DNA from: Thermodesulfobacteriota bacterium | GTDB taxonomy: Bacteria > Desulfobacterota > BSN033 > WVXP01 > G020346125 | DNA: 32,579 bases | Direction of reading: 5' to 3' | NCBI GenBank assembly: GCA_030145085.1 | Contig: JAQYWG010000011.1 | Span: forward strand, 1 to 32,579 | Shown here: positions 6,080-18,784 of the stretch, piece by piece | Numbering within the stretch: the stretch's first letter is position 1 | Layout of the letters: every line of letters begins with the position of its first letter | The notes under the pieces: model-generated | What the model was told of the DNA's origin: nothing | Database searches by the model: none | The model's input: only the letters and a program-made list of their open reading frames with translations | Position numbers and translations under genes: made by a program

Positions 6080-7468
6080 TTACCCAAAGTCCTTCTGAAT
6101 CTCCCTGAGCAGCGCAATATTGTCGCTATGGCCTGTCATGTTGGCAGTAATCCAGCCCTTAATAGGCTGATTAAAGAGGTAAAAATCACCAATGATATCC
6201 AGGATCTTATGCCGCACGAACTCGTCGGGAAACCTGAGGGTAGTGTTCATAACTCTCCCCTCATCCAGGAGGATAACGTTGTGCAATCTTCCCCCTTCTA
6301 CCAAGCCCATCTTAGCCAACGATTTGATATCCTTGATGAAACCAAAGGTCCGGGCAGGGGCGATCTCCTCCTTGAAGGCCCCCTCATCCCCCATGATGAA
6401 GGTATATTCCTGCCGTCCGATGGGGGGTGGAGAATTGAGCAGATACCGTACCCCAAAATAGTCCGAGGGTTCGATAGAAATATACTTCTTATCTGGATCA
6501 ATCTCCCCTACCGTATATTGACGGTCGATGACCAATTCCCCTGATACCTCGTCTTGCTCCTCAATTCCGGCTTCCTCAATGATCTTGCAGAAATCCAATG
6601 CCGAACCATCCATAATGGGGATCTCTTCATTCATCTTCACCAAGAGATTATTGATACCGTAGGCATGGAGTACGGCCATGAAATGCTCTATGGTCTTGGC
6701 CGTGATCCGCCCCTTTCGCAGAGAGGTTGCGTGATCCGTCCCCTCCACATACATCAATTTTCCCGGGACCGTTTGTTCATCATAAATGTTGCCGAAAAGG
6801 ACCCCGCTATGGGAAGGAAGGGGCAGGAGCATAAGACCTGTTTTCAGGCCTGAATGGAGGCCGGTCCCATAGAGTATCATACTCTGTTTCAAGGTTCTTT
6901 GACGGACTCCTCTCCCTTGCGGAAAGCTCCGCGAACCAACGGGAGGAGAAGAAATTTCCGCGGCTTTTTTTGGTGGAAGGATGTGGGCCTCTGTCTTAGC
7001 TACCTCCATTGCAGGAAAAAGGTAAGGCTGTGTCTCGCGATCTTTTTTCCGGACGATTTCGCGAAGCCGGTGGTGTTCCAAGAGAAAGTTCCGATGTTCC
7101 ATTGCCTTTTCCAATGAGAGGAGAATTTCATTCATGTTGAGCGGCTTTTCGATAAAATCGAAAGCCCCCGATTTCACCGCTTTCACCGCTGAGGCAATCG
7201 TCCCATGTCCGGATATCATGATAATAACCCCATCGGGGTCCTGAGCCTTCAACCTCCTCAAGACTTCCAGGCCATCCATATCAGCCATCCAGATGTCCAA
7301 GAAAGTGACATCCGGAAATTCCCTGCCAGATATCTTCAGGGCCTCAATGCCATTGCTGACGGTAATCGTCTGATATCCCTCGTCCTCGAGAACCCCACTG
7401 AGGGATTTCAAGATACTCTCCTCATCATCAACAATGAGGACTTTTCCCTTAGCCATCGAATGCCTCAA
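6080..7468 (-). CDS. lpxC: Fusion protein: response-regulator receiver domain + UDP-3-O-acyl-GlcNAc deacetylase (LpxC)
   Basis: N-term REC: IVDDEES, FLDIWMADMDGLE, MISGHG, IEKPL. C-term LpxC: LYGTGLHSG, TIEHFMAVLHAYGI, MDGSALDF, PARTFGFIKDI, RHKILDIIGDFYLF, MTGHSDN. One uninterrupted 462-aa ORF. Confidence 0.93.
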   Translation of the reverse strand: MRHSMAKGKVLIVDDEESILKSLSGVLEDEGYQTITVSNGIEALKISGREFPDVTFLDIWMADMDGLEVLRRLKAQDPDGVIIMISGHGTIASAVKAVKSGAFDFIEKPLNMNEILLSLEKAMEHRNFLLEHHRLREIVRKKDRETQPYLFPAMEVAKTEAHILPPKKAAEISSPPVGSRSFPQGRGVRQRTLKQSMILYGTGLHSGLKTGLMLLPLPSHSGVLFGNIYDEQTVPGKLMYVEGTDHATSLRKGRITAKTIEHFMAVLHAYGINNLLVKMNEEIPIMDGSALDFCKIIEEAGIEEQDEVSGELVIDRQYTVGEIDPDKKYISIEPSDYFGVRYLLNSPPPIGRQEYTFIMGDEGAFKEEIAPARTFGFIKDIKSLAKMGLVEGGRLHNVILLDEGRVMNTTLRFPDEFVRHKILDIIGDFYLFNQPIKGWITANMTGHSDNIALLREIQKDFG

Positions 7469-7537: not shown

Positions 7538-8236
7538 CTATTTCGACCTTCCCCCGGAAGGCGGGGGAATTCCGGGTTTTTGGGCCAACCCTAATTGCCG
7601 CTTCAAATCTTGGATAATGAGATCTTTCTCCTGATTCTGGGCCTCGGCCTTCGCCAGATCTTTCTCGAAATGAATCAGCTCTTTTTTTAGATCCTGAATC
7701 ACCTGGTCCCTGTTCTCTATACGCATTTGTATCAACTTCTTTTCCTGCCGGTCCTTCTCCACAGTTTGGGTCAACTCAGCTATCTTCTGACCTTTAGCCT
7801 CACCCTTCTCCCTCAAATCTTGAATTGCCTTGTGGAGTTCTTCCACCTGTTTTTTTACGTTAGACAAAACCTGGGATTTTATCTCTTCGCGGGTAGTAAG
7901 TTCTTTCACTTTTCCCTCTTTCAGCTCAACCTTTTTTTTGAGGGCGGTCAATTTCCCCTGATATAACTGGGTCTCCTTTTTGAGCTTCTTGAGGCTGGCT
8001 TCTTTTTTCTTGATCTGTGCCATCATAGCACTAATCTTCCGCTGGAGCGCTTTCTTCTCCTCCCCGATCTTCTCAGCCGTTATCTTCCCCGCCTTTTTGA
8101 GCGACTCAATGTCCGCCTTCAACTGGATGGTCTCCTCCTTCAGGCTCTTGATCGGGCGCTTATAAAGAGAATAGATCCAAAAAAAACTCACCACAAGTAA
8201 AATCAAAAGAAATATAATCCAGTGTGCGCTTTTCAT
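7538..8236 (-). CDS. Coiled-coil protein with N-terminal membrane anchor
   Basis: MKSAHWIIFLLILLVVSFFWIYSLYKRP followed by about 180 aa of K/E/Q-rich heptad-like sequence. Confidence 0.8.
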   Translation of the reverse strand: MKSAHWIIFLLILLVVSFFWIYSLYKRPIKSLKEETIQLKADIESLKKAGKITAEKIGEEKKALQRKISAMMAQIKKKEASLKKLKKETQLYQGKLTALKKKVELKEGKVKELTTREEIKSQVLSNVKKQVEELHKAIQDLREKGEAKGQKIAELTQTVEKDRQEKKLIQMRIENRDQVIQDLKKELIHFEKDLAKAEAQNQEKDLIIQDLKRQLGLAQKPGIPPPSGGRSK

Positions 8237-10402: not shown

Positions 10403-11254
10403 ATGACAAGAGAGGTAAGGGGAATGAGAAGAACCGTTGTGATTCTCTGCTGCATGTTCGCATTTGGGATTGCTCTGACGTTCATCATCGGTCTGCCGGA
10501 GGCCCCGCAGAAGAGGGAAGATATGCGCAAGTTTGGGGCGAGCCCTGTCGTAAGCACGGAAAAGCAGAAGGTCGTCCAAGAGGTGGCAGAGCCGGAGACG
10601 GAACCCCCTGATACGGTCTACTATGCGGAGAAAAGTTGGTGGGGGAAGGTAACCTTTACCCACACCGAACACAGCGAGGATTTCGGCTTCGATTGCGATG
10701 CGTGTCATCACGTGGACATGGAAGGTGGGTACAACAAATGCTCGTCCTGTCATGATGACCTGAAGGATACGTTCCATAAGAACTGTTTTAAGGGATGCCA
10801 TCGAAAACTCAAGGCCGAGGCGAAGAAAACGGGACCAACCACCTGCAGGGGATGTCATGTCAAAGGGGAGTTGCCAGGGGCCCCACGGGAGAAGGAAATA
10901 GCCCGGAAGGTCGAGACGAGCCCAGTTGTGACGAAGGAGGAGCAGAAGGTTGCCAAGAAAGAGGTGGCAGAGCCGGAGACCGAACCCCCCGAGACGGTCT
11001 ACTATGCGGAGAAAAGCACGTGGGGAAAGGTAACCTTTACCCACATGAAACATACAGAGGATTACGGCTTCGATTGCGATGCGTGCCATCACGTGGACAT
11101 GGAAGGTGGGTACAATAAGTGCTCATCCTGTCATGATGACCTGAAGGATACGTTCCATAAGAACTGTTATAAGGGATGCCATCGAAAGCTCAAGGCCGAG
11201 GGGAAGAAAACGGGACCTACTACCTGCAAAAAATGTCATGTCAAAGGAGGATAG
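10403..11254 (+). CDS. Multiheme cytochrome c, two tandem tetraheme-like modules
   Basis: N-terminal hydrophobic leader (possible alternative start 10424). Each module has CDACHH, CSSCH, C(F/Y)KGCH and C(RG/KK)CH. Confidence 0.88.
   Translation: MTREVRGMRRTVVILCCMFAFGIALTFIIGLPEAPQKREDMRKFGASPVVSTEKQKVVQEVAEPETEPPDTVYYAEKSWWGKVTFTHTEHSEDFGFDCDACHHVDMEGGYNKCSSCHDDLKDTFHKNCFKGCHRKLKAEAKKTGPTTCRGCHVKGELPGAPREKEIARKVETSPVVTKEEQKVAKKEVAEPETEPPETVYYAEKSTWGKVTFTHMKHTEDYGFDCDACHHVDMEGGYNKCSSCHDDLKDTFHKNCYKGCHRKLKAEGKKTGPTTCKKCHVKGG
10580..10866 (+). repeat. Direct repeat copy 1 within the cytochrome gene
   Basis: 287 nt aligning without gaps to 10961-11247, about 90% identical by eye. Confidence 0.9.
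10961..11247 (+). repeat. Direct repeat copy 2 within the cytochrome gene
   Basis: Offset 381 nt from copy 1, in frame. Confidence 0.9.
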
Positions 11255-13036: not shown

Positions 13037-13567
13037 TTACTCCCCCGTCTGTCTTTTCAACTCATCCGCGAACGTCGAAAAACTCCCTTCCCCGTACAGA
13101 CAGAAGACCACTCGGCGCAACCCAGTCTCCCCCTTGAGGTATTCGAGGCCTGTTGAAAGCATAATCTGCGCACATCGCTCCACCGGATATCCGAATATCC
13201 CCGTGCTGATGGCCGGGAAACTGATGCTCTCAAGGTGATTCTCGTCGGCAATCTTAAGGCTGTTCAGGGTGGCCTCTCTCAATTTTCTGTCCTCATCTCC
13301 CTCCCCCATGCGAGGGCCGACGGCATGAATGACGTGTTTTGCCTTAAGATTCCCCCCCGTGGTGATTACCGCGCCGCCCACATGGGTTCCCCCGATCCGC
13401 TTGCACTCCTCCTGAATAGCAGGTCCCCCCTTATTCCTTATCGCCCCTGCTACACCACCACCCAATATCAGCTGAGCATTTGCTGCGTTGACAATGGCGT
13501 CGGTCTCCATCTCGGTAATATCGCCCTGGACTAGTTCGAGCATAGATTGACTGATTCCTCTTTCCAT
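13037..13567 (-). CDS. Macrodomain protein (ADP-ribose-binding or deacylating type)
   Basis: VQGDITEMETDAIVNAANAQLILGGGVAGAIRNKGG...HAVGPR...SISFPAISTGIFGYPVE. Confidence 0.95.
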   Translation of the reverse strand: MERGISQSMLELVQGDITEMETDAIVNAANAQLILGGGVAGAIRNKGGPAIQEECKRIGGTHVGGAVITTGGNLKAKHVIHAVGPRMGEGDEDRKLREATLNSLKIADENHLESISFPAISTGIFGYPVERCAQIMLSTGLEYLKGETGLRRVVFCLYGEGSFSTFADELKRQTGE

Positions 13568-14988: not shown

Positions 14989-15957
14989 TTACTCTCGTTG
15001 GCCTATATTCCGGACTTTACATTCTGCCAACCTCTCCGCAAGGGAGAGAATGTAGTCCCTTCCTTTTCCCTCATTCTCCAAAGGCATTAACCATTCCCGT
15101 GGGATTTGGGAATAGCCGTAGTAAGCACCGGCTATGGCCCCCGACATCGCGCCTATGGTATCGGTATCGCCCCCGCAATTTACGGCCACAACGACGCTCT
15201 CCTTAAATCCCCTGGTCGACAGGAAGGAGGCTATGGCCGGGGGAACAGCACCGATAGCACTTACATCGCAATAAAAATGCGAGCCTATGGCATTGATAGT
15301 TGTTCGAAGATCCCCACCTTTGATCCCCTTTATCCTTTCCAATTGATGGGCCATCTCCTGGTCGATCTCGACCACACTCTCGATAATGAGATTGGTAAAT
15401 CTCTCGATCTCAATAGACTTTCCTCTCAGTCCCTTTCGAGTGGCAATCCCAATAGCTGTCGCCTGAGCTACAGCCCCGGCTATCCCCTTTGGGTGCTTAT
15501 GGGTAATCAGACTCGACTGAATGGCCGCATCCCTCAGTTTATCAGGATTGTCGTGGAAAAAAAAACCGATGGGAGCAATTCTCATGGCGCTGCCATTACC
15601 CCAGCTATCCGTTCCTACCTGATCCCATGGGATTCCCCTTCGCAACCGATCCATAACTCCGTAGATCCTTCCCCCATACCCCCGGTTAGGGTTAAAGTTA
15701 TGGAGGAATTTCTCGGCAGTCAGACCAGGATCGAACAGGCCATCCTCACACAGACTTTCCATAATCCCCACCATCATCTCCGTATCATCGGTATAGATCC
15801 CCTCGACCATATCTTCGAGAATCCCGAAGGCCCTCCGTATGGCCGAGGCCGGCCACCCTTCTACGGCTCTGCCCATGGCATCTCCTATGAAAGTTCCGAT
15901 GGCTGAGCCTTTAAACCTATCCCTTAGCCCGTCCAAATCCATGCTCTTGCTCTCCAC
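14989..15957 (-). CDS. ADP-ribosylglycohydrolase family protein (DraG/ARH-like)
   Basis: GSAIGTFIGDAMGRAVEG, YTDDTEMMVGIMESL, NCGGDTDTIGAMSGAIAGAYYG. Confidence 0.93.
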   Translation of the reverse strand: MESKSMDLDGLRDRFKGSAIGTFIGDAMGRAVEGWPASAIRRAFGILEDMVEGIYTDDTEMMVGIMESLCEDGLFDPGLTAEKFLHNFNPNRGYGGRIYGVMDRLRRGIPWDQVGTDSWGNGSAMRIAPIGFFFHDNPDKLRDAAIQSSLITHKHPKGIAGAVAQATAIGIATRKGLRGKSIEIERFTNLIIESVVEIDQEMAHQLERIKGIKGGDLRTTINAIGSHFYCDVSAIGAVPPAIASFLSTRGFKESVVVAVNCGGDTDTIGAMSGAIAGAYYGYSQIPREWLMPLENEGKGRDYILSLAERLAECKVRNIGQRE

Positions 15958-17926: not shown

Positions 17927-18784
17927 TCAAACTCTTCTCGTCACTCCCATGCCCAGGAATGTGTTTTTCCCGGTGCCGCAATAATAGGCATAATCGGCTA
18001 GGGTGTTGAACTCCCGGATATGTCTCTCATGGTGTCGTCCCACCAACAGGAAACGACACCACCCCGTAAAGCCATGCTGTTTTCCGTAATCTATCTCATG
18101 GGAGACGGGAGAGATATTGAAGTCCGCCAAGAAAATAGATTGTTCGATTACCTCTGTAAAGTCCGAGGAGAAGGGAACAAAGGAAAACCACCTCCAATGA
18201 TCGAGGTATCCATTGAAAACCAACAGGGGATCGGGCAAGGGGAGGCTTCCACCACTTCGTTCAAAAGCCGTGGCCGTGGCGAACTGGAGGGTTATATTCC
18301 TCATGGAGGGGGAGGCATCATCGTAAAGTTCCTTATAGCTCTTGCGGTTAACCCAAGGATCTGCGCTTTCGTTAATAAAAACCGTTTCCGTTATCCTTAA
18401 AGGGATGTCGTCTATGGAAAGAAATATTCCCTCGCCCGATTCCCGTAAAATCCCCTCCACCCTTTTCCCGACCGCATCCTCCAAGAGGCTGATCCTCAGG
18501 CGACATGGGGTTCCCGCCCTTATTAAGCCTTCATCGCCAAAATCCCTTTCGCGGACCAATTTCTCAATCCCGCGCCTCTCCTTGGCCCTCGCTCCCCTGC
18601 TTACCTTGCCGAAAAGGGGGGAAAGGGTGAAGGGAATTGTCCTGGACCCCGAGATCCTCTGGACCACCTGGCTATCCAAACCAGCCAAAAAGGCCATAAA
18701 CCCATCGTGGAGGCCCTTCCCAATAGAGGCCCTCTTTGATAAATCGGCCTCCGGGTGGCAATACATGACAAAAGAGGAGGGCAT
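17927..18784 (-). CDS. cas6: CRISPR-associated endoribonuclease Cas6-like (RAMP)
   Basis: N-term LHDGFMAFLAGLDSQVVQRISGSRTIPFTLSPLFG; C-term GFTGWCRFLLVGRHHERHIREFNTLADYAYYCGTGKNTFLGMGVTRRV, matching the Cas6 C-terminal G-rich loop pattern. Confidence 0.82.
   Translation of the reverse strand: MPSSFVMYCHPEADLSKRASIGKGLHDGFMAFLAGLDSQVVQRISGSRTIPFTLSPLFGKVSRGARAKERRGIEKLVRERDFGDEGLIRAGTPCRLRISLLEDAVGKRVEGILRESGEGIFLSIDDIPLRITETVFINESADPWVNRKSYKELYDDASPSMRNITLQFATATAFERSGGSLPLPDPLLVFNGYLDHWRWFSFVPFSSDFTEVIEQSIFLADFNISPVSHEIDYGKQHGFTGWCRFLLVGRHHERHIREFNTLADYAYYCGTGKNTFLGMGVTRRV

Follow-up and report, generated by a model that had tools for sequence, protein, structure and literature searches.

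LpxC commits the cell to the synthesis of lipid A, the endotoxin of the outer membrane, and its control outside the enterobacteria and Pseudomonas is largely an open question. One described link runs through the two-component system NtrY-NtrX: deletion of ntrYX in Rhodobacter raises lpxC mRNA 8.8-fold and lipopolysaccharide about 2-fold, without an NtrX site at lpxC (PMC7240162), and an influence of NtrYX on lpxC transcription is found in Caulobacter as well (PMC7240162, and a recent review, PMC12444477), the review listing NtrYX as an lpxC repressor in two alphaproteobacteria and control by FtsH/LapB and by MurA elsewhere. In Desulfovibrio vulgaris, lpxC is the sole mapped target of the response regulator DVU2934, and in Syntrophobacter fumaroxidans it lies directly upstream of the operon orthologous to that of DVU2934 (PMC3333781). 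We have analysed a stretch of 32,579 nucleotides from a Thermodesulfobacteriota bacterium (contig JAQYWG010000011.1 of assembly GCA_030145085.1; hereafter, the window) in which LpxC itself is joined, within a single gene, to an N-terminal receiver domain of the NtrX type. On comparative grounds we consider it likely that this protein would be an LpxC deacetylase whose NtrX-derived receiver acts as a built-in control domain, phosphorylated by NtrY and setting the flux into lipid A.

The locus shares its receiver type and its kinase family with the NtrY-NtrX systems of Rhodobacter, Caulobacter and Brucella; however, known NtrX is a DNA-binding, sigma54-type regulator, whereas here the output is LpxC, the AAA+ and helix-turn-helix (HTH) parts are missing or decayed, and the free NtrX is gone. 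DVU2934 is likewise an lpxC-linked regulator but acts at the DNA. LapB-FtsH-YejM of Escherichia coli and MurA of Pseudomonas aeruginosa also control LpxC post-translationally, as described in PMC12444477, but these are separate partner proteins, whereas the control domain is covalent here and of the two-component type. A gene fusion of LpxC is itself known, namely LpxC-FabZ of Bacteroidota and others (PRK13188, NF009667; PMC3087551), in which FabZ is a second enzyme at the C-terminus, in contrast to the regulatory receiver found here at the N-terminus. An LpxC-FabZ-like protein was also seen at locus L202. CheB, PleD and the regulators of the PDE and HD-GYP types resemble the present protein in joining a receiver to an enzyme, and in enzyme-output response regulators activity is expected to follow phosphorylation. 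Such regulators are already known; LpxC as an output is new, and we know of none in which the output is a committed-step enzyme of envelope biosynthesis. The open-licence papers searched held no description of a receiver-LpxC protein or of LpxC as an output domain, and the passages of PMC12444477 consulted make no mention of the fusion.

The gene and its parts are listed below by window position, with residues numbered on the 458-residue protein.

6080..7456, minus strand: fused receiver-LpxC gene, 458 amino acids, ATG start at 7456
7463..7468, minus strand: Shine-Dalgarno-like TTGAGG, 6 bases upstream of the ATG at 7456 (role proposed from the sequence)
7115..7441, minus strand: NtrX-type receiver domain, residues 6-114 (PF00072, NF051870, PDB 4d6x and 1zit, tree)
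7295..7297, minus strand: predicted phospho-acceptor Asp54 (FLDIWM), conserved among fusions
7145..7147, minus strand: receiver Lys104 (EKPL), conserved among fusions
6902..7114, minus strand: linker, residues 115-185, which extends the last receiver helix, then turns Pro/Ser-rich, and varies among relatives
6095..6901, minus strand: LpxC catalytic domain, residues 186-454 (PF03331, E 1.3e-76; TIGR00325 above cut-off)
6683..6688, minus strand: catalytic Glu257 and zinc-ligand His258 (alignment to PDB 6moo; conservation)
6197..6211, minus strand: zinc-ligand motif H416-K417-I-L-D420 (conservation; alignment to PDB 6moo)
6128..6130, minus strand: catalytic His443 (TGH) (conservation; alignment to PDB 6moo)
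7538..8236, minus strand: upstream gene for a single-pass membrane coiled-coil protein, possibly co-transcribed with the fusion

The first-pass annotation had described positions 6080-7468 as one uninterrupted open reading frame (ORF) joining a complete receiver to a full LpxC, without naming a strand; we confirm the frame and place it on the minus strand, stops interrupting the opposite strand over the same interval (sequence and ORF check). The ATG at 7456 is a better start than the TTG at 7468, because the latter sits within TTGAGG. On the 462-residue reading that begins at this TTG, Pfam matches Response_reg at 10-118 (E 4.6e-29) and LpxC at 190-458 (E 5.5e-76); the linker between the two domains is indeed present, but it measures about 71 residues rather than the 60 or so first estimated. 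The receiver proved complete, with D10/D11, D54, S82 and K104 all in place, and is matched by NtrC-type receivers of solved structure; one of these, 4d6x, carries the deposited name of a Fis-family regulator and is presumably the receiver of Brucella NtrX. Likewise, the LpxC domain exceeds its curated cut-offs (PF03331, 257.9 bits against 27; TIGR00325, 230.9 against 187.25) and retains every zinc and catalytic residue located by alignment to solved LpxC structures (E257/H258, H416-K417, D420, D424 and H443). By every feature tested the window protein is an LpxC, its deacetylation activity being predicted. The genome, a metagenome assembly in 480 contigs that is 99.03% complete, contains lpxB, and a profile search of it returned no second lpxC, so that the stand-alone canonical copy envisaged earlier is excluded. 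So fragmented an assembly could raise the suspicion of a frameshift, of a gene-prediction or assembly artefact, or of a silenced second copy; yet the ORF is uninterrupted, no second lpxC is present, a near-identical metagenome-assembled genome (MAG) carries this fusion too and another has it twice, and its recurrence across two phyla, in 89 and 10 genomes respectively, rules this explanation out, leaving it practically no credence.

The spread of the fusion also bears out the earlier surmise that similar proteins might exist elsewhere, and the width of the clade rules out an oddity of one genome: the fusion is a family trait of a large uncultured bacterial group allied to the sulfate reducers. 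With the LpxC domain as query, LpxC was found in 361 of the 395 genomes of the phylum, and 89 of these 361, from 25 families, carry the divergent fused type, which is 44-100% identical to the LpxC of the window, as compared with 36-42% for the ordinary LpxC of the phylum. Both types have the same complete catalytic domain; however, fused-type frames are about 415-490 or 700-820 residues long (a few are longer, and one ends at a contig edge), against mostly 300-350 or so for the ordinary type, and the LpxC domains of the fusions group as a single clade, separate from the ordinary LpxC of the phylum, with 100/100 support. The nearest genomes with an ordinary LpxC, G004 and G005, belong to the same order as the window genome. 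The fused type also extends to a second phylum (represented by L005, under the title Nitrospirae), where it occurs in 10 of 246 genomes, in 4 of them beside an ordinary LpxC, and the receiver is present in all five of the fused-type proteins whose sequence was read.

Some genomes carry more than one LpxC. Fused and ordinary types occur together in G052, G213 and G257 and, in the second phylum, in G408, G427, G456 and G461, for which transfer or specialisation is possible; the ordinary lpxC of G052 and of G213 adjoins NtrY, without NtrX. The single-contig MAG G001 (CP070774.1) holds two receiver-LpxC copies (L003 and L004), 130 kb apart, which share just a 3-kb block comprising the coiled-coil gene and the fusion, at 78% DNA identity; the pair looks like a paralogous duplication of these two genes.

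Among the 90 members fetched, all have LpxC and 89 a scoring N-terminal receiver. Of 89 scorable fusions, 88 retain the acceptor Asp; Lys104 is present in 90 of 90, as are E257, H258, H416, K417, D420, D424 and H443. D10, D11, D54, S/T82 and K104 are retained about as strictly as the catalytic residues of LpxC, both sets being conserved across about 50% divergence.

As to its origin, the best NCBIfam match of the receiver is NtrX (NF051870, E 3.8e-36), and a branch with 99% support parts the fused and NtrX receivers from generic NtrC-type receivers. A Trp two positions after the acceptor Asp is found in 88 of 88 fused receivers and 12 of 12 NtrX receivers but not in any of 13 generic receivers. 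Helix alpha1, the region of a receiver that kinases recognise, is 67% identical between the window receiver and NtrX, against 38% for generic receivers. The candidacy of a generic NtrC-type receiver is ruled out by the tree, the Trp and the helix. The receiver is therefore of the NtrX type, although the window protein is not itself an NtrX: it scores 124.9 bits against NF051870, under the 600-bit cut-off (as does the free NtrX of G004, at 520.8), and Pfam finds in it neither the AAA+ domain, with its GAFTGA motif, nor the Fis-type HTH. An AAA+ domain does stand between receiver and LpxC in 20 members, from all of which the sigma54-contact motif GAFTGA is absent; most of these segments are closer to NtrX than to generic regulators (three of the four in family f58 are not), and the AAA+ forms inspected outside f58 carry a recognisable but decayed Fis-type HTH. 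L084 matches positions 3-450 of the 452 of the NtrX model and then continues into LpxC. Given these AAA+ intermediates with relics of the HTH, we infer that a whole NtrX fused to LpxC and was reduced later; the tree lends no support to the monophyly of the AAA+-bearing forms, yet does not reject it (approximately unbiased test, p 0.31). The AAA+ part of these 20 fusions (e.g. L084, L095, L111) often retains a Walker A-like motif (GESGTGKE, GEPGTGKE), and may still bind ATP and further regulate LpxC.

The decay of the AAA+ and HTH parts within the family would also suit a receiver that is itself a passive relic, or a folding or dimerisation module, with its signalling lost, and so would L100 (L100:765-2111), which keeps LpxC but has lost the N-terminal half of its receiver, the half that bears the acceptor. 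Against this, the phosphorylation residues are about as conserved as the catalytic ones, the kinase-facing helix is still NtrX-like, and NtrY has been kept intact although free NtrX was lost, which makes such a relic very improbable. The damage in L100, and in L090 (L090:7815-10061), where a stop or frameshift interrupts the receiver, may be sequencing error.

A further comparison concerns the partner genes. Free NtrX, counted genome-wide at no less than 527 bits and 54% identity, is present in 21 of 22 genomes with ordinary LpxC versus a single one of the 52 with the fusion (Fisher p 3e-16, which is overstated because genomes of one clade share ancestry), the counts of absence depending on completeness, since the genomes are mostly MAGs, and on the scoring of 22 candidates in each. 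The sole fusion genome with a free NtrX is G213, which also keeps an ordinary LpxC. By contrast, exactly one NtrY was found in 39 of the 40 fusion genomes searched, the exception being the incomplete MAG G001 (75% complete), in which none was found; the phospho-acceptor His motif is kept in each of the 47 NtrY sequences read from genomes with the fusion. The window genome itself encodes a full-length NtrY (G000:C65:1004-3208, E 1.1e-237; PF19312 NtrY_N above cut-off). In 28 of 78 loci the fused gene is immediately preceded by a full-length NtrY gene, which is on the same strand and abuts or overlaps it, and where NtrY is detached in fusion genomes no NtrX adjoins it. At L180 (G000:C65) and L181 (G002:C244), NtrY is flanked by the genes for DUF4390 and RseC/MucC, and the place of NtrX is vacant. 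Among the ordinary-LpxC genomes, which include G106 with intact ntrYX as a control, lpxC-ntrY-ntrX lie on one strand in 9 of 22 loci and lpxC-ntrY in 4 more; the fusion therefore probably arose between existing neighbours.

The earlier suggestion that a two-component phosphorelay might control lipid A synthesis directly is supported in part: direct two-component control of LpxC is favoured by comparative evidence, namely the NtrX-type receiver, the kept Asp, the loss of NtrX with retention of NtrY and the operons of ntrY with the fusion; a multi-step phosphorelay fits less well, and a simple step from kinase to receiver would fit better. Alternatively, the receiver could be read by another kinase or by small phosphodonors, the link to NtrY being historical, a view to which the unlinked ntrY of the window genome and the lack of any ntrY in the incomplete G001, despite its two fused copies, lend some colour; yet those 28 loci have NtrY immediately ahead of the fusion, and NtrY would otherwise be an orphan kinase with no NtrX adjoining, and we hold this alternative to be unlikely. 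With free NtrX gone and NtrY kept, the sensor probably controls LpxC directly, not via gene expression.

On balance we lean, if only slightly, towards a two-component system rewired from genes to an enzyme, in which NtrX has been captured by lpxC and NtrY would set lipid A synthesis through the receiver of LpxC. According to this proposal, the whole response regulator NtrX would have become fused to the N-terminus of lpxC in an ancestor, and in the lineages descended from it the AAA+ portion and the DNA-binding portion would have decayed or been deleted, giving the receiver-linker-LpxC form seen in the window. The membrane-bound sensor kinase NtrY would then phosphorylate Asp54, and phosphorylation would alter the tethered LpxC through domain contact or receiver-driven dimerisation or, less likely, through its stability, the altered state setting the flux into lipid A. 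By analogy with NtrYX of Rhodobacter, it is more likely that phosphorylation lowers the output of LpxC.

How the two domains would communicate is best judged from the linker, which spans about 41-82 residues in receiver-LpxC forms and varies widely in both length and sequence, while the helix that follows the receiver extends into a long, coiled-coil-like form, as in NtrC-type dimers, in family f12 and in the genus to which the window belongs, but is short elsewhere. These patterns argue for a tether, with switching by dimerisation or domain contact, rather than for one rigid coupling. Variable linkers also suit a different arrangement, in which NtrY phosphorylates the receiver but affects the stability or location of LpxC, through exposure to a protease or docking to NtrY at the membrane, instead of its catalysis, the receiver replacing the logic of the C-terminal degron of E. 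coli. The fused proteins do end 11-20 residues past the last conserved Asn of LpxC, without the LAXXXXXAVLA tail of the E. coli type; moreover, proteolysis through FtsH/LapB controls LpxC in E. coli, and a LapB homologue of Neisseria is proposed to act via the localisation of LpxC (PMC12444477). However, the degron is also missing from many unfused LpxC proteins (PMC12444477), so that its absence proves little, and none was identified in the linker; control of stability or location is accordingly a possibility that we rate as rather doubtful, in comparison with the catalytic control by NtrY that we prefer.

Several observations weigh against control of LpxC by NtrY through its receiver. In the window genome ntrY lies on another contig (C65), away from the fusion; some of the NtrX absences may reflect incomplete MAGs or the limits of the search, to which the shared ancestry behind the Fisher value is to be added; the receiver of L100 lacks its acceptor half; and the variable linkers do not suggest one rigid allosteric coupling. 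Nor did structure prediction, run on the window protein together with three of its close relatives, offer help, since the model had a mean pLDDT of 30 and a pTM of 0.20 and was discarded.

Elsewhere in the window, genes for a macro domain protein (13037-13567, minus strand) and an ADP-ribosylglycohydrolase (14989-15957, minus strand) lie close together on one strand and are possible ADP-ribose-processing genes; a Cas6 endoribonuclease gene occupies 17927-18784 on the minus strand, and 10403-11254 on the plus strand encodes a multihaem cytochrome c of the class III type, built of two repeated halves.

These genomes tie NtrYX to LpxC in three ways, namely through a gene cluster, a gene fusion and the loss of the free regulator, and they thereby name a kinase, a site (Asp54) and an enzyme, rendering the control of lipid A directly testable in a whole branch of bacteria. 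They also point to a transcription factor becoming the control domain of an enzyme, with intermediate forms still to be found in living lineages.
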